Position numbers and translations under genes: made by a program. The notes beneath the pieces were generated by a model. The model was not told where the DNA came from. It ran no database searches and saw only the letters and a program-made list of their open reading frames with translations. Shown in pieces: positions 4,197 to 29,922 of a stretch of 29,922 nucleotides of DNA. Each line of letters starts with the position of its first letter. The first letter of the stretch is position 1. The DNA lies in the IMG/VR virus record IMGVR_UViG_3300029922_000241, positions 1 to 29,922 of that record. The stretch is one strand, 5' to 3'. This stretch comes from a virus.

Positions 4197-5450
4197 CTAG
4201 ATAGTAATACCAAACTCCTTTAATTTAGCTTCTTGTTCCGTTGCTTCATCTAAACTGTCTGCGTAAGTCTCTATATAGTGTCCTTCGATTTGTTCGCAAT
4301 ACTCCTTACACTTGGATATCGCTTCTTCTTTCGTGTCACCAGTAGCCACTACAGCCCCAATCTCGGGCAATCCTACGCCCTGTGGGACAACGTAATACTT
4401 ATTATTAATTATAGCAAGATTTCTAAACTTATATTGATCTCTTAACTCTATCGGAAAATCAATCGGCTGCCAATTAGTGTCTGCCCAAGAAGAATGAATA
4501 AGAACTTCCGCCCCAAACTTACCTTCACAAATAGGCTCTATTAATATCCCCTCTGCGCCAAACCACAATATTTCAGCTAAATTAGTATACATATTCTGAA
4601 CCAACTCACCCGGAGGACTTCCAAAGCGTGTCATGGGATCAATTACCCAAGGTGTTCCATCCTTAGTAATCCTCATTTCACAACAAAAGAAATTCTTATA
4701 GCCATACTCTTTAAGGGCTGGGGAGACTTTTGAGTTTACATCTAGAATCTGTTTTGGCATTTTGGCGTATTCTTTGAATATGCCAAGATAAGACTTATCC
4801 TTAATCTCAATACCTGCCATTGCGTGTTTAGGAAATTGACCGTCTACGGTGTACCCATCATACCCCACTTCTACAGCATCTTTAATAGCGTCCTCAACAA
4901 CCCACTGCATGATAGTTTTCTTGGCTCCTAATTTATATTCCAATTCGTCTAATTTAGGCTCTATCAGATTATAATTCTTAGAACGGAATGTTTCCATATC
5001 GCCGCGAGTAGTTGAAACCTTTACATACTGATCGTCATTCTCTTTCAAGTATTCACGGAGATTGTCCATCCCTGTAATGACTTCATATTTCCCAATATTA
5101 ACTCCTACGCTTTTAAGATATTTCTTTGTCTCAGGCCGATAAAGTTCTAATTCGTCACCGTTGCGCGAACCCCAAACCCTTTTGCCCTGTGACTCTAATT
5201 CAAGTTGTAGACCTCCGCAATAAATATCAGGAAAAACCCATAAATCAACCTCATCTTTCACTTCCCAATAGTCATTAATACGTGTCACATTTGGTATGCC
5301 AGTTCCTACTAATCTAGTGTTTGATTGGGGGAAGGCGTTTACCCACGGGGTGTGATAATATACCTTACCAAATGTTTTTGACAAAGTTACAGCTAGTTCC
5401 ACAAAGAGACCGTTATCTATTATCATCACGCATTTCTTAGAGAAGTCCAT
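4197..5450 (-). CDS. PurD-like ATP-grasp ligase
   Basis: The 417-aa protein has the layout of phosphoribosylamine-glycine ligase (PurD)-type ATP-grasp enzymes, which join a carboxylate to an amine through an acyl-phosphate. Visible parts are an N-terminal Rossmann-like region, the nucleotide lobe with QYVKVSTTRGDMETF (141-155), VGYDGYTVDG (195-204), the metal-site segment E258 to D271 (EMRITKDGTPWVIDP) followed by TRFGSPPGE (274-282), and a PurD-like C-terminal segment IGAVVATGDTKEEA (364-377). Length equals bacterial PurD, but purine synthesis is unlikely inside a virion operon and residues around the PurD substrate site differ. Its start overlaps the SpeD-like gene by 14 nt, so the two are probably one functional pair. 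Substrates are unknown. Confidence 0.78.
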   Translation of the reverse strand: MDFSKKCVMIIDNGLFVELAVTLSKTFGKVYYHTPWVNAFPQSNTRLVGTGIPNVTRINDYWEVKDEVDLWVFPDIYCGGLQLELESQGKRVWGSRNGDELELYRPETKKYLKSVGVNIGKYEVITGMDNLREYLKENDDQYVKVSTTRGDMETFRSKNYNLIEPKLDELEYKLGAKKTIMQWVVEDAIKDAVEVGYDGYTVDGQFPKHAMAGIEIKDKSYLGIFKEYAKMPKQILDVNSKVSPALKEYGYKNFFCCEMRITKDGTPWVIDPMTRFGSPPGELVQNMYTNLAEILWFGAEGILIEPICEGKFGAEVLIHSSWADTNWQPIDFPIELRDQYKFRNLAIINNKYYVVPQGVGLPEIGAVVATGDTKEEAISKCKEYCEQIEGHYIETYADSLDEATEQEAKLKEFGITI

Positions 5451-5799
5451 TTTTTAACCTCAATTCATGTGCCTTTATTTGTTTTATCTTAAACCCCAAT
5501 GCCCGAACCTTTTTATTTACTTTATTCAAATTTACAGTCTTGCATGAGCAAATAATTAAATACGCTCCACCAAAATCAGGCCATGCGTCAAACGCTATAA
5601 AGCTTTCGGTAATTGGTTGGATGTAAGTATATCCCGTTCCGCCACTACCACCGACGGGGTAATCATAAACTACTGGGTCATGGGCTTTATTCATTCCCAA
5701 GACCTTAACAAGTTCCTCCACAAGTTTTGTTCCCACAATAATAGAACAATGGCCTTTAATTGCAAGCGTTACAATGTCCATTCTTTCTCCGAGCTTCAT
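5437..5799 (-). CDS. S-adenosylmethionine decarboxylase-like (SpeD family) protein
   Basis: The 120-aa length and fold pattern match bacterial class 1B AdoMet decarboxylase, a self-cleaving pyruvoyl enzyme that makes the aminopropyl donor for spermidine. The processing site Glu-Ser is present (E65-S66 in PITESFIAFDAWP), the WP motif follows, and a Cys in the CSCK segment (C86) aligns with the catalytic Cys. By hand alignment to the Thermotoga enzyme, the proton-donating His is an Asp here (D71) and the second active-site Ser is a Thr (T58). The ATG directly abuts the stop of the acidic micro-gene. Polyamine supply, or an altered decarboxylase specificity, is likely; self-processing needs testing. 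Confidence 0.8.
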   Translation of the reverse strand: MKLGERMDIVTLAIKGHCSIIVGTKLVEELVKVLGMNKAHDPVVYDYPVGGSGGTGYTYIQPITESFIAFDAWPDFGGAYLIICSCKTVNLNKVNKKVRALGFKIKQIKAHELRLKNGLL

Positions 5800-14796: not shown

Positions 14797-16038
14797 TCAA
14801 ATGTCCCCCCACCATCCTGTTTTAAGGTTCATTATTCCTTTAGCTGATACCGCTACTGTTGTCGCCTTAAACGCCCCAATGTCCCAAGGGACAGTACGGG
14901 ATGTTCCTACAATATCATTTGAAAAAGGAATATAAGTATCTGCTGAAAGATTTGCACCAAGTCCAGTTGCGCCAGTATCGCTTGCTCCAAGGTTGAAATT
15001 ACCACTTCCCGAATTAACAAAAGTTACTGTTGCTCCTGTATGATACGTCCCAATATTAGGACAAGTTGCATCGCTTGAAAGATTATTAGTTGAAAGTGAA
15101 CTAAATACCGATGAATTTGTAAAACTATAATCGGCGGTTGAATTGTTTACGCAGATATTATTCTTGATTAACCAAACTGGTTTTGTTGTTCCTTGAGCAT
15201 TTATGCCGACAACGCAATTTACAACAGTATTGTTATATACAAAAATATTGTCATAATAATTTCCTCCAGAAAGTATTCCGCAAGAATTTGTTCCCTGTAA
15301 AGCATAAATAAGATTGTTCCAAACATATACACTCCCATGATTATTATAGGATTGTACTCCTGTCGTTGAAGAATGATTAATGGTACCATTATCACTAATC
15401 AGAATATTGTCGGATATATAAAATGATGTACCTTGATACCCTAGAAAAATACACGAAGGACTACTATATGCTTGCACACGAGTTTTAAGGATTAATCCCG
15501 TAATATTCAAATATATTGGAGCTAGAGTTCCAATACAATTTGCCCCACTAGAAGAAGGATATAACATATAACCTTGGCTAACAGTTCCATTATGTCTTGC
15601 CGTTGGTGTTGTATAAATATTTATATAATTCGTAGATGAACAGGTATATCCTGAAATAGTAACAGCCGTCGTATCTGGACTTGACCATGTTCCATCAATC
15701 TTTATGTTTAAATAAGGGCTTGCTCTGACGCTCCCAAGAGTAACGTAATTTGTTCCTAAAGTTTCGTAGACAATTTCACCATTTTGAAAAGTTCCTGAAA
15801 TTGATATAATTAGAATTTGTGAATTGACAGATGAAGCATGAACGCAAGTTCCTGTTGCTCCAGAAGTCAGGCCAGTTACGGAAGTATTGTCTGTCATTGT
15901 TCCAGTAATTCCACCAGTAATGGAAAACACCCCCGTAGATGCAGCCGTTAAATCACATTCGCAAGCAACCAAAGCTGCATTAAGAGATGAGAAATCTCCC
16001 GATGATGGCATAACTGAAACTGTAAAAGGCGTTGCCAC
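14797..16038 (-). CDS. Right-handed beta-helix fibre/spike protein
   Basis: The 413-aa protein starts at a GTG whose G overlaps the preceding TAG stop, with AGGAG seven bases upstream. The N-terminus (FTVSVMPSSGDFSSLNAALVA) is the usual cap of phage beta-helix proteins. The middle has Asn-rich rungs (NNLIYALQGTNS, YDNIFVYNNTVVN, WLIKNNICVNNST), and the end has the closing motif GLGANLSADTYIPFSNDI followed by PWDIGAF, common to parallel beta-helix proteins. No hydrolase catalytic set is obvious. Beta-helix spikes bind or cut surface sugars. It is co-translated with a sulfotransferase and APS kinase, which may modify it or its receptor. The last eight residues (KTGWWGDI) look like an extension. 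Confidence 0.8.
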   Translation of the reverse strand: MATPFTVSVMPSSGDFSSLNAALVACECDLTAASTGVFSITGGITGTMTDNTSVTGLTSGATGTCVHASSVNSQILIISISGTFQNGEIVYETLGTNYVTLGSVRASPYLNIKIDGTWSSPDTTAVTISGYTCSSTNYINIYTTPTARHNGTVSQGYMLYPSSSGANCIGTLAPIYLNITGLILKTRVQAYSSPSCIFLGYQGTSFYISDNILISDNGTINHSSTTGVQSYNNHGSVYVWNNLIYALQGTNSCGILSGGNYYDNIFVYNNTVVNCVVGINAQGTTKPVWLIKNNICVNNSTADYSFTNSSVFSSLSTNNLSSDATCPNIGTYHTGATVTFVNSGSGNFNLGASDTGATGLGANLSADTYIPFSNDIVGTSRTVPWDIGAFKATTVAVSAKGIMNLKTGWWGDI

Positions 16039-16607
16039 TATTTTCTCCTGTCGATATATAAAGAACTGTCTACTGCTGTTGATGCTTTAATATAATTAAA
16101 TTTGAAATCATCCGTATTAATAAAATCCGCAATTTGTTTTGCAGCCATTAATGGGTCTTTACATATTGCATTATATTCCAATCTTAAAATATCATTTCTG
16201 CCTGTAAAAACTTTATCCCAGTCATCTGGCGCAACTACTTCTGTAACATTGCGTTTTAATGTTTTAATTCCAAGAAACATTTCTCTTGTATAAATATCAT
16301 CCCAAGATGATTGCATTTCTTTGATTGACCTTTGCAAATATATTAACTTCATACCTTGCGTACCTTGAAGCATACAAACAGACATTAATTTAGTGCATCC
16401 ATCTGTTCGATTTGCAACTCTTTCATCTTCAAAGAATCCATATGGATTTCTATAGGTTTCTAATGCTTCTTTTATATTTAAATAATCATCATTTCTTACA
16501 ATCAATCCCCCAAACGATAACATCCTCATTACCATTGAAGAGCCAGAACGAGGTTGACAACAAACACACACCCTTGGAATAACGCTAGATTTCAAAAGGG
16601 TAGTCAT
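16038..16607 (-). CDS. PAPS-dependent sulfotransferase-like protein
   Basis: The 189-aa protein has the two signatures of sulfotransferases that use PAPS. Near the N-terminus after a hydrophobic strand is QPRSGSSM (residues 18-25), the 5'-phosphosulfate loop; at 89-102 is IYLQRSIKEMQSSW, the 3'-phosphate-binding segment with R93 and S101. It is shorter than typical carbohydrate or tyrosyl enzymes but has the core. The upstream gene is an APS kinase (23-nt overlap), which makes the donor PAPS, and the downstream fibre gene starts on its stop. Together they form a minimal sulfation unit. Whether the acceptor is a glycan, a protein or a lipid is not shown. Confidence 0.8.
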   Translation of the reverse strand: MTTLLKSSVIPRVCVCCQPRSGSSMVMRMLSFGGLIVRNDDYLNIKEALETYRNPYGFFEDERVANRTDGCTKLMSVCMLQGTQGMKLIYLQRSIKEMQSSWDDIYTREMFLGIKTLKRNVTEVVAPDDWDKVFTGRNDILRLEYNAICKDPLMAAKQIADFINTDDFKFNYIKASTAVDSSLYIDRRK

Positions 16608-16905
16608 CGCCTGTCTTACCGCCTTCTAAATAAACAAATCTACAATTTGTTATTTCCTGAACCTGACTCCTTAATTCTTTATAGGGACAAATAGTTGAAA
16701 CTATCACATCAAACCCTTGAGATTCAAGATTCTTAGCCAATCTTGCCACTCTCATGTTCTGCTCTATTCTATCTTCCTGCGAAAACCCAAGTCCTGGCCA
16801 TACGGCTCTCATGTCATCACCATCAAGGATAACCTCATTCTTCTTTAGCCTTTTTGCTAAAGTTGTTTTTCCTGAACCGCTATTTCCCGTTATCCAAGTA
16901 ATCAT
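16585..16905 (-). CDS. Mini adenylylsulfate (APS) kinase
   Basis: The 106-aa protein matches the first part of CysC: P-loop GNSGSGKT (7-14), LDGDDMR (27-33), GFSQEDR (40-46), a helix with RVARLAKNLESQG, and the strand VIVSTICPYKELR (67-79) where CysC has ISPY. It converts APS and ATP to PAPS. Bacterial CysC has about 170-200 aa; here the segment between the late strand (FVYLEGG) and the closing TGDDYPFE is much shorter, so the lid with the KGLY loop appears missing. The start overlaps the upstream stop (ATGA) and the 3' end overlaps the sulfotransferase gene. Activity is likely but the reduced lid leaves doubt. Confidence 0.83.
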   Translation of the reverse strand: MITWITGNSGSGKTTLAKRLKKNEVILDGDDMRAVWPGLGFSQEDRIEQNMRVARLAKNLESQGFDVIVSTICPYKELRSQVQEITNCRFVYLEGGKTGDDYPFEI

Positions 16906-17348
16906 TGTGCCTTTTTAATAACACTACTTGTAAATGTTGGGCCATCTAAAGGTAATATTCCTATAATGCCAGTAGGATTCTGCAAAGTTCCACCATTCTT
17001 AATATTACCGCTACTTACACCAGTTAATCCTGATTGAACCACATCAGTTGAAACGCTGTACTGAAAACACTTTAATAATATCGGATTCTGCGGGTTTGTA
17101 TTATCGTACAATGCTCCTTCATATTGCTGTGCATCTGCTAGGGCAATGTCAGGACATTGGATAACAATGAAATTAGGCGGACATTCCATATCTTCCCATC
17201 CCCATCCATCATCACGAACAACAATAATATCCCCAGGCTGAACTCTTGCATTAAAATCAGCTAACTGTGCTGGACTTAACGCATTGATTTGGTCTTGCGT
17301 ATAATCGTCTTGCCAATGACCGCTTGCTTTAATTAAGAATTCAGACAT
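16902..17348 (-). CDS. Hypothetical late protein of the sulfation block
   Basis: The 148-aa product has an N-terminal module with FLIKASGHWQDD, then GDIIVVRDDGWGWEDME (39-55) and PNFIVIQCPD, a pattern I associate with small phage proteins of unknown function in which a loop with GD.v.Vr.DG.. WG..E is conserved. The second half is Asn/Gly/Ser-rich and beta-like. No enzyme motif is visible and there is no good ribosome site. Its stop overlaps the APS kinase start. It might be a small virion protein or an assembly aid for the fibre; the function is unknown. Confidence 0.65.
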   Translation of the reverse strand: MSEFLIKASGHWQDDYTQDQINALSPAQLADFNARVQPGDIIVVRDDGWGWEDMECPPNFIVIQCPDIALADAQQYEGALYDNTNPQNPILLKCFQYSVSTDVVQSGLTGVSSGNIKNGGTLQNPTGIIGILPLDGPTFTSSVIKKAQ

Positions 17349-17352
17349 ATTT

Positions 17353-18138
17353 TTATGGTGCTACATAATAATTAACTAGAATACTCAACGATCCCGCAGA
17401 GTTTACTGTACAAATAAAATTATTTGATGCTGGTATCTTTATAGGCGTTTGTTGAGGTATGGGATAAGTCATACCGCCGTTTGCTGCAAAATACAATGTT
17501 TGAATATTTATAGCCGTTGTCGTCGGTGCTGTTGCCCCTGTACCATATCCAAAATAAATTGTGCCAGCAGTGTTTCCGTTGCTCACTAAAATACTTGTTA
17601 AATAGATTGCATTTGTCGCTATTGAAGGAACTATGATTGATGTCCCTGCTGTGCCTACGTTAATCGTTGCCGAACTATAGCTTGGCATAACCACTAAAGA
17701 CACCGAGCCAGTAATAGGATTAACAATAGACACGCTTCCAGTTATGGCAGGTAGAACAGTTATGACTGAATTTGTTGTCGAAGCGTTTAATACCGTCACG
17801 CTACCCGTGATCGAAGGAAGTACAGTTATGACCGAATTTGTTGTAGACGCAGGCATACTTAAGACAGTAACGCTTCCTGTAATAGACGGTAGAACCGTGA
17901 TGACAGAGTTTGTAGTTGATGCCGGTGCGCTTAATATAGAAACGCTACCTGTTATCGTGGTTGAACCGCCCGAAGGAATGACGTAATAGGGGTTCGTTGG
18001 CAACCCTTTCTCTGCGCCCGTCCCATCAACTAAAACACTTATAGGAAGATTCACCTGCACAGCGCTCTGTGTGATTAAAAACGAACCAACGTATATCGTT
18101 GACCCCGTATCTATCGTGAATTGATTTGTGGTTGACAT
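17353..18138 (-). CDS. Repeat-containing beta-rich virion protein
   Basis: The 261-aa protein has an N-terminal beta region, a central array of about 24-aa repeats (residues 62-152) of the form ITGSVTVLSMPASTTNSVIT plus VLPS, and a C-terminal beta domain with GTIYFGYGTGATAP and PIPQQTPIKIP that resembles small phage structural modules. Ser/Thr/Val make up most of it. No membrane segment or enzyme motif is present. The repeats suggest a fibrous stalk built from short beta turns. It lies between two small virion proteins and the sulfation genes, so a fibre or decoration role is likely. The family is not recognised. Confidence 0.7.
   Translation of the reverse strand: MSTTNQFTIDTGSTIYVGSFLITQSAVQVNLPISVLVDGTGAEKGLPTNPYYVIPSGGSTTITGSVSILSAPASTTNSVITVLPSITGSVTVLSMPASTTNSVITVLPSITGSVTVLNASTTNSVITVLPAITGSVSIVNPITGSVSLVVMPSYSSATINVGTAGTSIIVPSIATNAIYLTSILVSNGNTAGTIYFGYGTGATAPTTTAINIQTLYFAANGGMTYPIPQQTPIKIPASNNFICTVNSAGSLSILVNYYVAP
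17683..17955 (-). repeat. Tandem 72-bp (24-aa) repeats inside a virion gene
   Basis: Two full 24-aa units, one 22-aa unit and two partial units of 10-11 aa, each opening with ITGSV, are encoded here. Units differ at many synonymous positions while the protein sequence is kept, so these are old repeats under protein-level selection rather than a recent replication slip. Confidence 0.85.
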
Positions 18139-26600: not shown

Positions 26601-26759
26601 TTATTTTAATACTCTACGGGAAGGACAAACTCTATCGGTCTTGCGGTTTAATCTCATGTGTAAAATGTGTCTCTTGAACTGACAGGTGTAATGTCCACAT
26701 GTCTTGCGGAGGATGGGGCGTTTATTGCAATAGGGGCAAATCACCTCAGTTCCAGCCAT
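26601..26759 (-). CDS. Small zinc-finger protein
   Basis: From the ATG at 26759 the product is 52 aa; an upstream ATG at 26789 would add 10 residues but has no ribosome site. CPYC near residues 8-11 and CGHYTC near 20-25 form a likely C-x2-C ... C/H-x3-C zinc site, followed by a very basic helix (KRHILHMRLNRKTD). This resembles the small DNA-contacting zinc finger of mobile nucleases, without the nuclease. It overlaps the end of the glycosyltransferase gene by 19 nt. Likely a nucleic-acid-binding protein; not recognised further. Confidence 0.55.
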   Translation of the reverse strand: MAGTEVICPYCNKRPILRKTCGHYTCQFKRHILHMRLNRKTDRVCPSRRVLK

Positions 26760-27307
26760 AATGTCCAGCTTTCTTTTAGAGTCTTCCATATTGATATTAA
26801 TTTAACTTTCTTGTTGCCGGGCGTAAATTCAATAGGCACTTCTATCATGCTCATACCTTTTTGTTTAGCCACTGAAAGTATTTCTAAATCAAATAACCAG
26901 CCATTGCTATACCAATCCCCTAGGGCGTATGTTCTGAAAGCCTTTATCCCTGTTTGGCTGTCTACTTTTACTCCAAAGAGTAAAGCTATATAAATGCGTG
27001 AAAAATACGATAGCACTCTACGTGACCATCTGCCACTAATAGGTTTCACTCCGCACACAATGTCATAGTCCCTTAGATAAGGCAATAACCTCAAAATCAT
27101 TCTTGGGGATATGTCACCGTCACCGTCGATAAATATAACTGTTGTGCCGGTAGCTTGAGCTAATGCTGTTCTCATAGCCCATCCCTTACCCTTGGCCTCT
27201 CGATCATTGCAACCAATTATTTGAATGTCTCCCGGGACTTCATTCTCTATTTCTTCCATAAACTTCTGTGTATCGCAATTATGACTTGGACATATAATAC
27301 TTAACAT
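26741..27307 (-). CDS. GT2 glycosyltransferase (DPM/GtrB-like)
   Basis: The 188-aa protein is a GT-A fold family 2 transferase of the dolichol/polyprenol-phosphate type: a first strand and turn LSIICPSHN, the KGWAMRTALAQATG segment (41-54) with VIFIDGDGD (57-65) as the metal-binding Asp motif, and later DSQTGIKAFRTYALGDW typical of DPM1-like enzymes. It lacks the C-terminal membrane helices of full GtrB. The start is the ATG at 27307 behind GAGG. It follows the GT-C gene, so it may load a sugar on a lipid carrier that the GT-C protein then transfers. Confidence 0.82.
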   Translation of the reverse strand: MLSIICPSHNCDTQKFMEEIENEVPGDIQIIGCNDREAKGKGWAMRTALAQATGTTVIFIDGDGDISPRMILRLLPYLRDYDIVCGVKPISGRWSRRVLSYFSRIYIALLFGVKVDSQTGIKAFRTYALGDWYSNGWLFDLEILSVAKQKGMSMIEVPIEFTPGNKKVKLISIWKTLKESWTLWLELR

Positions 27308-27314
27308 TATCACC

Positions 27315-28631
27315 TCACATTAGAATAGTTACTTTTCCTTCTTCAAAGTTTTTTATTATTTCTCCGCACGCTTTCTCTTGGCCCCGTGGAATATTAGTCT
27401 TGGCCTGTGCTAGAAGTTCCATTGCTTCTTTCTTGTTATTTAACATCATTAAGGATGAGGCAAGATTATAAAGAAGTTTAAATTCTTTTGGGCTTAAGGA
27501 CCTTGCGATTACCCAGAATATCACAGCTTCGGTATATGATTGCTTCTCCCATCTTTTCATAGCTGCTATGTGCCATGCAAACCAAGACTTAGGCTGGTGC
27601 ATACGCGCGAACTCTACCATCCAGAAATCATTTTGGTATCCGTCCATGAAAAACCACATCTTTGTAGCGTACATCATCAGGAATCCTGCGACAAGATACG
27701 GATTATTATGTATATAAAAAGCAAGGATAAGCATAAGTCCGATATTGGCAACATAAACATACCTTTCTCCTAATTCCTGTTGCATACGATATAAATTCAC
27801 GAAAGGAGATATCCCAACACACCACCAAAGGACCCCAAAACAGATTATGTCCCATTTATGAAAAATAACATACCAAGCCATTAGTAATATTGATGCTGTC
27901 CCAAACCAAAAGAACTTACAAGGCGTATAGGCATTAGCTTTCTTACAACCGGCAATGCTTTCTAAATAAGAATGATAGAAGGTCGTCTTGATTGGTATAA
28001 TCGCGTGGCTAAGATATATGCCAAATGTTTTTATAACTAACATGAACTTGCGCGGATGCCATTCTCTGTCCTCTGGCAATAACTCCATAGTCATCTTGGC
28101 CCCTACGTTAGTCTTAAACCTTTTCCAGTGGTATAGCCATACCAAAGGCGCAAATATAAATAAATAAGGATGGCTTGAGCCAAGCAAGATTACCGGCAAT
28201 AGGAATCCCGCATTTGAATAGGTCGCTCCCAGCAACATTAGTCCGCCCATCTCCATAGGTAGAACTAATGCCCAAACCATCCCTAATGCACTTAAAACGT
28301 ATCCGCGCCCGCTTATCCAGACTGATCCCTGATTGTTAATTGGGTTGAACGAGAATAATAACGCGGCCAAGAATGAAATGTCATTAGAACCAAAGCCAAG
28401 GTAAATCCCAACGCAAACGAGAGAGTGCAGAACTGTAGTAATAGCATGGTCTATCCTCGGAGTTGATTTTAGTTTTCCTTCAAATACCCAGAACCATTGA
28501 ATCCACCCCTTCTCTTTTGGGCGTTGAGAAGATGGAACGTCGTCGCTGACATATTCAAATTTCAATGTCTTAGCGTAGAATAGAAAGTTTACTGCTAATA
28601 TTATGAGGCTTTGTGTAATAATTTCCTGCAT
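27315..28631 (-). CDS. TMTC-like membrane GT-C glycosyltransferase with TPR end
   Basis: The 438-aa product is a multi-pass membrane protein. I start it at the ATG at 28631 with GGAGG upstream rather than at an earlier start 19 codons up. The first loop after helix 1 contains FEYVSDD, the acidic motif at the usual GT-C catalytic site, and many hydrophobic helices follow (FLAALLFSFNP, YLFIFAPLVWLY, GLMLILAFYI). Residues from about 360 are soluble, helical and TPR-like (EKQSYTEAVIFWVIARSLSP ... LYNLASSLMMLNNKKEAMEL). This matches TMTC-type mannosyltransferases in outline. It overlaps the radical SAM gene by 31 nt. A phage version likely alters host surface sugars. Confidence 0.75.
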   Translation of the reverse strand: MQEIITQSLIILAVNFLFYAKTLKFEYVSDDVPSSQRPKEKGWIQWFWVFEGKLKSTPRIDHAITTVLHSLVCVGIYLGFGSNDISFLAALLFSFNPINNQGSVWISGRGYVLSALGMVWALVLPMEMGGLMLLGATYSNAGFLLPVILLGSSHPYLFIFAPLVWLYHWKRFKTNVGAKMTMELLPEDREWHPRKFMLVIKTFGIYLSHAIIPIKTTFYHSYLESIAGCKKANAYTPCKFFWFGTASILLMAWYVIFHKWDIICFGVLWWCVGISPFVNLYRMQQELGERYVYVANIGLMLILAFYIHNNPYLVAGFLMMYATKMWFFMDGYQNDFWMVEFARMHQPKSWFAWHIAAMKRWEKQSYTEAVIFWVIARSLSPKEFKLLYNLASSLMMLNNKKEAMELLAQAKTNIPRGQEKACGEIIKNFEEGKVTILM

Positions 28632-29641
28632 TTTTCCTCCGTAACTAAACGAGCCCCCCTTAAAAGATAAGTAAAATCCTCCCAACATTTAATATCTGAA
28701 AACTTCCTCAAAATAAATTCAGGGCTTTTATAAACATCATAGAACTTAGGCAAATACTTATGACCGATAGAAGTAGGATTAGGGCTTGTACGAGGGGGTG
28801 AGTATACACTTGCTTGAGCAGTCTTAATATACCCCTTCCTGAGTAGGTAGTGACAGAGTTCGATCGTTCTTCGTTCATCTTTCTCCGTTTCCCAAGGATA
28901 TCCCGTCATAAATGTGGCATGGATATTTATTCCAGATTCGCTTGCTCTTTTCATATCCTTGATTGTTTCTTCTGCCTTAGTGCTCTTTTTAATTTTGTCT
29001 AGTGTAATCTGATTAGCAGATTCTATCCCCACAAGTACAAACCTAAAACCGGCACCAGCCATCATCTCCCAAGGGGCCTCACCAACCCTCATGTTACATC
29101 CTATCTTTATCTTTCCCTTACGATTATTAACCATCATCTTAACGCAAAATTCGTTTAGCCATTTACCAATCGGGAAAGTCCCTGAATCATCAAAAACTTC
29201 TCTGTATCCATGTTTAATAAGGTCGTCTATTTCTTCCATGACGTGATCTACTGTTCGAATACCACGCTTTTCTCCATCTTCAAGTTTCTTAGTGTCAATA
29301 CAGAAAGTACACTTAGAATACCAGCAAAGATTTGATGACATCATGTGTGTGGCAGGATGCCATCGGTAATTCCCGTAACTTTGCCATCTAGGGTTCTTAG
29401 CGTCTGTGAATATGCGGTCTGGATAAGGGAGTTTCTCAAAAGACACGTTTATTTGGTCGTCTGTTAATATTATCTTGTCCCCTGCACCATTAACAAAATC
29501 TTCTTCCCAATCCCAATAAACACTATTACCTTGATTCCTTAAATAAGTAGCATACATAGCTAAATGAGCAGGGTAAACCCATACAGGCTTCTCGAACTGT
29601 CTTTGCTGGTTGTAGGGATTTAAGGGAAACAAATATCTCAT
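28601..29641 (-). CDS. Radical SAM enzyme
   Basis: The 346-aa protein (ATG at 29641, overlapping the previous TGA as ATGA) has a short N-terminal Rossmann-like part (YPAHLAMYATYLRNQGNSVY) reminiscent of a shrunken cobalamin-binding domain, then the cluster loop C106 WYSK C111 TF C114 (a Cys-x4-Cys-x2-Cys variant), and canonical core strands: FRFVLVGIESANQITLDKI, then HATFMTGYPWETEKD. Such enzymes of the B12-type group act on lipids, sugars or small molecules in surface biosynthesis. The substrate is unknown. Its place between an epimerase and a GT-C gene suggests the same pathway. Confidence 0.83.
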   Translation of the reverse strand: MRYLFPLNPYNQQRQFEKPVWVYPAHLAMYATYLRNQGNSVYWDWEEDFVNGAGDKIILTDDQINVSFEKLPYPDRIFTDAKNPRWQSYGNYRWHPATHMMSSNLCWYSKCTFCIDTKKLEDGEKRGIRTVDHVMEEIDDLIKHGYREVFDDSGTFPIGKWLNEFCVKMMVNNRKGKIKIGCNMRVGEAPWEMMAGAGFRFVLVGIESANQITLDKIKKSTKAEETIKDMKRASESGINIHATFMTGYPWETEKDERRTIELCHYLLRKGYIKTAQASVYSPPRTSPNPTSIGHKYLPKFYDVYKSPEFILRKFSDIKCWEDFTYLLRGARLVTEEKCRKLLHKAS

Positions 29642-29922
29642 AATCCCACCCATCTAGGATTTCTAACTGTCCAGGTAACCGTATCCTCTAAAGACTTCTC
29701 TAAATTCTTAGGAAAACGATGGCCATAATTATATAATTTCTCTCCACTTAGTCCGTAAAACATATCATGACCACTTCTGCTTGTAGTAGCGTCTATTAAC
29801 TCATAATTCAATGGCTTTCCTATTATTTTAGCGATTAGCTGTGCCATTTCTAGGTTACTTATCTGCTTCCCCCCTACAATATTAAATCTCTCTGGGCGGC
29901 TAGACTGCGGGAACAAGGGGAC
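29638..29922 (-). CDS. SDR sugar-nucleotide epimerase/dehydratase, C-terminal part
   Basis: The frame is open to the right edge, so only the last 94 residues are visible. They match the C-terminus of NAD-dependent extended SDR enzymes such as dTDP-glucose 4,6-dehydratase: RPERFNIVGGKQISNLEMAQ, then IGKPLNYELIDATTSRSGHD (the substrate loop, normally RPGHD), GLSGEKL and a final TWTVRNPRW. The N-terminal nucleotide site lies outside the window. It probably makes an activated sugar for the glycosyltransferases that follow. Its stop overlaps the radical SAM start. Confidence 0.85.
   Translation of the reverse strand, partial: VPLFPQSSRPERFNIVGGKQISNLEMAQLIAKIIGKPLNYELIDATTSRSGHDMFYGLSGEKLYNYGHRFPKNLEKSLEDTVTWTVRNPRWVGL

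Follow-up and report, generated by a model that had tools for sequence, protein, structure and literature searches.

The kinase and the sulfotransferase encoded side by side in the window (the whole stretch of DNA analysed here, a 29,922-base IMG/VR virus record) probably catalyse two steps of a phage sulfation module, PAPS formation and sulfate transfer; in most relatives, a small nucleotidyltransferase would make the APS. As for this nucleotidyltransferase, the evidence tips us, though by no means decisively, towards a third class of ATP sulfurylase, minimal in size, that is not related to CysDN and not orthologous to Sat. Together with the lid-less APS kinase it would constitute the smallest known PAPS synthetase, serving sulfation and not assimilation, in phages and in some bacteria (Patescibacteria, Omnitrophota, SAR11).

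The kinase-sulfotransferase pair and its surroundings

The following features of the locus are used below.

16902..17348, minus strand: small accessory protein with GWGW motif, upstream of the kinase; short similarity to L067:6379-6723
16585..16905, minus strand: minimal CysC/APS-kinase-like P-loop kinase, 106 aa, ATG start at 16905
16864..16887, minus strand: Walker A GNSGSGKT, kinase residues 7-14; G7, G12 and K13 invariant in 30 relatives
16807..16824, minus strand: DGDDMR, the DGD phosphotransfer motif plus Arg33; D28 and R33 invariant, D30 in 28/30
16585..16607, minus strand: kinase/sulfotransferase overlap of 23 nt, from ORF positions
16038..16607, minus strand: PAPS-sulfotransferase-fold protein (predicted), 189 aa, ATG start at 16607
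16533..16556, minus strand: 5'-phosphosulfate-binding-type loop QPRSGSSM, from the PF13469 alignment; G22 invariant in 27 relatives
16302..16340, minus strand: 3'-phosphate-binding-type loop YLQRSIKEMQSSW; R93 at least 90% conserved in 27 relatives
14797..16038, minus strand: putative fibre protein, 413 aa, beta-helix-like, candidate acceptor, GTG start

Our reading of the ORFs agrees with the original prediction on the positions of both genes, their minus-strand orientation and their 23-nt overlap. The claimed fusion of the sulfotransferase stop with the GTG of the 413-aa ORF was also read in the sequence (TAGTG, one base in common). The overlap is likely to bring about translational coupling, and comparable kinase/sulfotransferase overlaps (-7 to -28 nt) were found in L026, L031, L032, L035, L042, L057 and L067. 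At its other end, the kinase gene (ATG) and the end of ORF 16902-17348 (stop) overlap by 4 nt. The assumed tail-operon setting holds too, since the pair is flanked on the same strand by virion genes assigned with PHROG (terminase, portal, tail and internal virion proteins). The major capsid protein, encoded on this strand as well, is 39% identical to that of Pelagibacter phage HTVC010P. Judging solely by operon position, the pair may be expressed late.

The kinase matched, at a level far beyond chance, the Pfam APS_kinase profile PF01583 (E 2.4e-19, profile positions 4-98 of 152) and APS kinases of the PDB (E down to 6.6e-14; best 7yq0 and 8a8h). Over the homologous ~95 residues it has in common with CysC (PF01583/TIGR00455) the Walker A and DGD motifs, two invariant arginines at APS-contact positions and [ST]xI[CS]PY. 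In the alignment, which comprised 29 phage relatives, R46 is conserved in 30/30, as are D28 and R33; from CysC structures, we take R33 and R46 to be the APS-contact positions. The difference from CysC lies in the lid and the last strand and helix, which are missing or collapsed to GGxxxxxYP[YF]E, so that the protein has 106 aa against ~180-200. The lid and C-terminal region (KGLYKKA...FTGIDxPYE) were not found, the Pfam alignment ending at 98/152 and the protein at residue 106, and the score against the NCBI apsK equivalog TIGR00455 was 71.4 bits, below the cutoff of 138.7. Because it departs from CysC in both these respects, we place the protein in the APS-kinase superfamily and do not file it as CysC. 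Of the CysC-type kinase originally proposed, the family and motifs (PF01583, Walker A, DGD) are thus retained, but the form is a minimal, lid-less one and not the standard CysC. Lacking the lid and C-terminal part, the kinase may have no activity or may use a different nucleotide. The DGD motif is essential in human PAPSS1 (PMC11697783). In the kinase tree, minimal and canonical forms separated with support 98/97, and nucleotidyltransferase partners occurred on both sides.

As for the second protein, its AlphaFold (AF2) model was of medium confidence (mean pLDDT 69.6, pTM 0.68), with a good core and poorly predicted residues 40-68. When the model was compared with known structures by Foldseek, as the original prediction had suggested, sulfotransferase-family structures made up 50/50 of the PDB matches listed, the best among those listed being 1ov4 (human SULT2A1, DHEA-ST; E 2.6e-4, TMq ~0.5). 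On this model, the protein is a sulfotransferase at the fold level. Its score against PF13469 (Sulfotransfer_3) was 20.1 bits, under the Pfam gathering cutoff of 27. An HMM of 15 sulfotransferase-like neighbours that excluded the window protein recovered it with E 7.4e-6, and single-sequence phmmer matched two of these 15 neighbours at ~1e-4 (1.2e-4); E-values from iterated HMMs were not used as evidence, as the window sulfotransferase had entered the training set. Both loops quoted originally are present, QPRSGSSM at residues 18-25 and YLQRSIKEMQSSW at residues 90-102, and align with 26 relatives as the 5'-PSB and 3'-PB loops. A search for cellular relatives of this protein found none, and a reciprocal search baited with it recovered its own contig alone. 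Four supposed relatives (L002-L005) were rejected, being a helicase reading frame.

The 413-aa protein, plausibly a beta-helix fibre, had no match in Pfam or PHROG. Downstream of a nucleotidyltransferase-kinase-sulfotransferase trio, L035 and L067 encode a small 'GWGW' protein (DGxGW motif) and then a fibre-like protein, 57% identical between the two loci. The window candidate occupies the same position, and no sequence similarity was found between it and these two proteins. The neighbourhood of kinase, sulfotransferase and fibre, which the original prediction proposed to look for, is seen in the gene order of L035 and L067 but not in the sequence of the window fibre. For the small protein at 16902-17348, the similarity to L067:6379-6723 is short and weak (E 9e-6 in a single comparison).

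Other genes of the window are mentioned here as separate observations. A 261-aa protein with repeated ASTTNSVITVLPSITGSV units (17353-18138, minus strand) is likely a beta-rich virion decoration. An S-adenosylmethionine decarboxylase-like protein (5437-5799, minus strand; PF02675, E 2.5e-6, above the gathering score) lies among tail/fibre genes. Upstream of terminase, a radical SAM protein, a 457-aa protein of no assigned family and a GT2 glycosyltransferase are encoded (26741-29653, minus strand), a possible cluster for glycan or peptide modification.

The nucleotidyltransferase-kinase module in viral and cellular genomes

Close searches with the kinase yielded one relative only. A motif scan followed by an alignment search added ~20 further short kinases whose tails have the same signature, and in most short-kinase loci a ~110-aa HxGH nucleotidyltransferase was encoded directly beside the kinase. 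Searching with this nucleotidyltransferase gave at least 318 viral relatives; 80 loci were kept, and removal of near-duplicates left 73 non-redundant viral loci. In these, nucleotidyltransferase and kinase were fused (9 loci), adjacent (33) or near each other (7), with the kinase only in 12 loci and the nucleotidyltransferase only in another 12. Partner presence can be taken as a fair figure because either gene served as bait: the nucleotidyltransferase was present in 12 of the 19 kinase-baited loci (outgroup L047-L052 and the window excluded), and the kinase in 37/49 nucleotidyltransferase-baited loci. Fusions found in isolates (Clavibacter phage 33, Stenotrophomonas phages DLP_6 and Suzuki) are annotated as 'kinase' or 'hypothetical'.

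Among the motif-scan loci, a kinase was present only in L016 (same contig as L001), L019, L023 and L025; the remainder, rejected as chance pattern matches without a kinase, were controls. The phage matches of one search were rejected as minimal forms, being ordinary full-length CysC. The kinases of L047-L055 except L053 (142-155 aa, 32-33% identity, no module neighbours) represent the outgroup.

Sulfotransferases were the commonest neighbour family (15 loci in a pairwise search). With the window counted, 20/73 loci have a sulfotransferase at -76 to +13 nt from the module, two of them (L032 and L036) being weak sulfotransferase calls; in most module loci, no sulfotransferase was found in the DNA examined. 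A PF13469 match was detected in 20/50 module records against 0/21 control phage records, the latter being few and not habitat-matched (Fisher p 3e-4). The kinase-sulfotransferase pair recurs in many phages that are otherwise unrelated, with its loops conserved among the relatives, as the original prediction required. Rather than a one-off, the pair belongs to a widespread module, usually including the third enzyme. Glycosyltransferases and sugar enzymes were found near many modules. In L001 (3363-4559), a sulfotransferase domain fused to a methyltransferase domain is encoded upstream of the nucleotidyltransferase-kinase pair.

The nucleotidyltransferase carries the HxxH adenylyltransferase motif, with H17 and H20 invariant in 36 sequences. 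By profile and fold it is nearest to NadM/PPAT, not to ATP sulfurylase (Sat): it has the HxGH core, the NPF/YxxxER stretch and the S[AGS]TxIR motif in common with NadM/PPAT, which also provide its best PDB matches, and the Sat profile PF01747 was matched only by L085 (E 0.0019, under cutoff). It nevertheless differs from NadM in being shorter, in the GRxVG motif (75/82 module nucleotidyltransferases vs 0/59 NadM), in the median spacing from HxxH to SxTxxR (88 residues vs 120) and in its fusions with APS kinases, and the L036 protein reached 49 bits against the cutoff of 181 of the NadM equivalog TIGR01527. GRxVG presumably resembles GRDHAG of Sat, which we treat as a lead only. Full-length APS kinases above the apsK cutoff of 138.7 were fused to it in both orders, the nucleotidyltransferase coming first in L085 (kinase 219 bits, NCBI apsK) and the kinase first in L064 (156 bits).

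In cells, the nucleotidyltransferase is present in Omnitrophota, Planctomycetota, Patescibacteria and SAR11, and in Omnitrophota, Scalindua and a second planctomycete it is fused to APS kinases of full length. Twenty cellular genomes with this gene were inspected. Sat (PF01747) was found in one, a strong CysD match in six and neither in 14, while APS kinase was present in 20/20 and Sulfotransfer_3 in 15/20. Single absences carry little weight here, because most of these genomes are MAGs or SAGs whose completeness is not stated. Sulfotransferases directly precede the nucleotidyltransferase-kinase fusion in L140 and L148, and by eye a sulfatase-like gene lies downstream of the fusion in L148.

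Proposed function and alternative explanations

The nucleotidyltransferase most likely forms APS and would be a minimal, non-orthologous ATP sulfurylase. This is suggested by its fusions with full-length apsK, by the Sat/CysD gaps in the pathway and by the neighbourhood, namely the sulfotransferases upstream of the L140 and L148 fusions. According to the mechanism we propose, the nucleotidyltransferase, encoded beside or fused to the kinase in most relatives, would convert ATP and sulfate to APS. The minimal kinase would then phosphorylate the 3'-OH of APS with ATP, giving PAPS, as its family and conserved motifs suggest. Finally, the sulfotransferase, probably co-translated with the kinase, would use PAPS to sulfate an acceptor that is produced or becomes accessible as virions assemble. 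In the window contig, no nucleotidyltransferase was detected by motif or profile, and APS would for this reason be supplied by the host or through DNA that the record does not include. Of the donor synthesis and transfer originally ascribed to this phage, the kinase and sulfotransferase steps are therefore kept, but an APS-forming enzyme is absent from the contig. The acceptor would most likely be a virion fibre or decoration, or a phage or host glycan; fibre, other virion protein and glycan are all allowed because of the sugar enzymes near modules and the position in a virion operon.

Several other explanations were considered. First, the nucleotidyltransferase and kinase might activate a group other than sulfate, yielding a 3'-phosphonucleotide donor from which the 'sulfotransferase' would move that group. 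There is a precedent in Campylobacter, whose CysC-like Cj1415 acts on CDP-phosphoramidate, and the literature pairs the term cytidine diphosphoramidate kinase with Cj1415. The proximity of the nucleotidyltransferase to NadM/PPAT and the loss of the APS-kinase lid in the window would fit as well. We nevertheless consider this unlikely, since the kinases fused to this nucleotidyltransferase include full-length ones that exceed the apsK equivalog cutoff, the partners include clear Sulfotransfer_3 proteins (L074, E 1.7e-17), and there is the sulfatase-like gene near L148.

Second, the kinase might be an auxiliary metabolic gene of assimilatory sulfate reduction, supplying PAPS for cysteine and methionine, with the adjoining sulfotransferase incidental. 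Viral cysC has indeed been filed under this pathway, without validation (PMC12713726; PMC12766990), and PAPS feeds the assimilatory route in many bacteria. The predominance of sulfotransferases among the neighbours and their abutment on the module in 20 loci speak against it, however, as do SAR11 and Patescibacteria holders that include genomes without Sat or CysD; moreover, no PAPS reductase was noticed in those neighbourhoods that were read. This makes assimilation an improbable role. Third, it is very improbable that the pair is decaying, i.e. that the kinase, truncated and inactive, and the transferase, divergent, are remnants of a larger module: the kinase is short, the contig lacks the nucleotidyltransferase and the sulfotransferase scores under the Pfam cutoff, yet the short kinase form, the tail signature C-x-F-[IV]-Y-x-x-GG...YP[YF]E and the invariant catalytic residues are common to ~20 divergent phages, the window kinase shares 72% identity with its L026 counterpart and has a short tree branch (0.095), and both frames are open and overlapping.

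Relation to known systems

The sulfation module would work like a PAPS synthetase with a sulfotransferase added. If it is compared with bifunctional PAPS synthetases (PAPSS; Sat-APSK fusions, PRK05537), the common principle is that an APS kinase is joined, by fusion or coupling, to an adenylyltransferase of the HxxH class. The partner differs, being a ~110-aa NadM-like nucleotidyltransferase in either order instead of a ~400-aa Sat domain. Phage auxiliary genes of the same PF13469 family have been reported, for example in OM43 phages, and their function was stated to be unclear (PMC10580990); here, in contrast, a dedicated PAPS-making module adjoins the sulfotransferase. In the open-access papers searched, no link between viral cysC and phage sulfotransferases and no description of the module nucleotidyltransferase was found.

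Regarding viral cysC and phage sulfotransferase as one module makes it testable that viruses bring along both donor synthesis and sulfate transfer. Should the nucleotidyltransferase indeed make APS, current annotation lacks a class of ATP sulfurylase, and metagenome inferences of no sulfate activation in SAR11 and Patescibacteria would need revision. The minimal kinase, if active, would imply that an APS kinase can work without the lid.

Some minor observations concern individual modules. In Pelagibacteraceae (L149:4429-6316 and L150:4447-6335), a conserved row of kinase, nucleotidyltransferase and a short pyruvate-kinase-like gene was seen by eye. The kinase-nucleotidyltransferase fusions of L152 and L154 (Rhodospirillaceae, Reyranella) have a very divergent kinase half and group in the tree with phage DLP_6 and marine phages; their substrate may differ. 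Neighbour clusters inspected by eye contained 2-oxoglutarate/Fe(II)-oxygenase-like genes near the marine modules of L079, L086 and relatives, and an annotated Fe(II)-dependent oxygenase is also found near the DLP_6 fusion.
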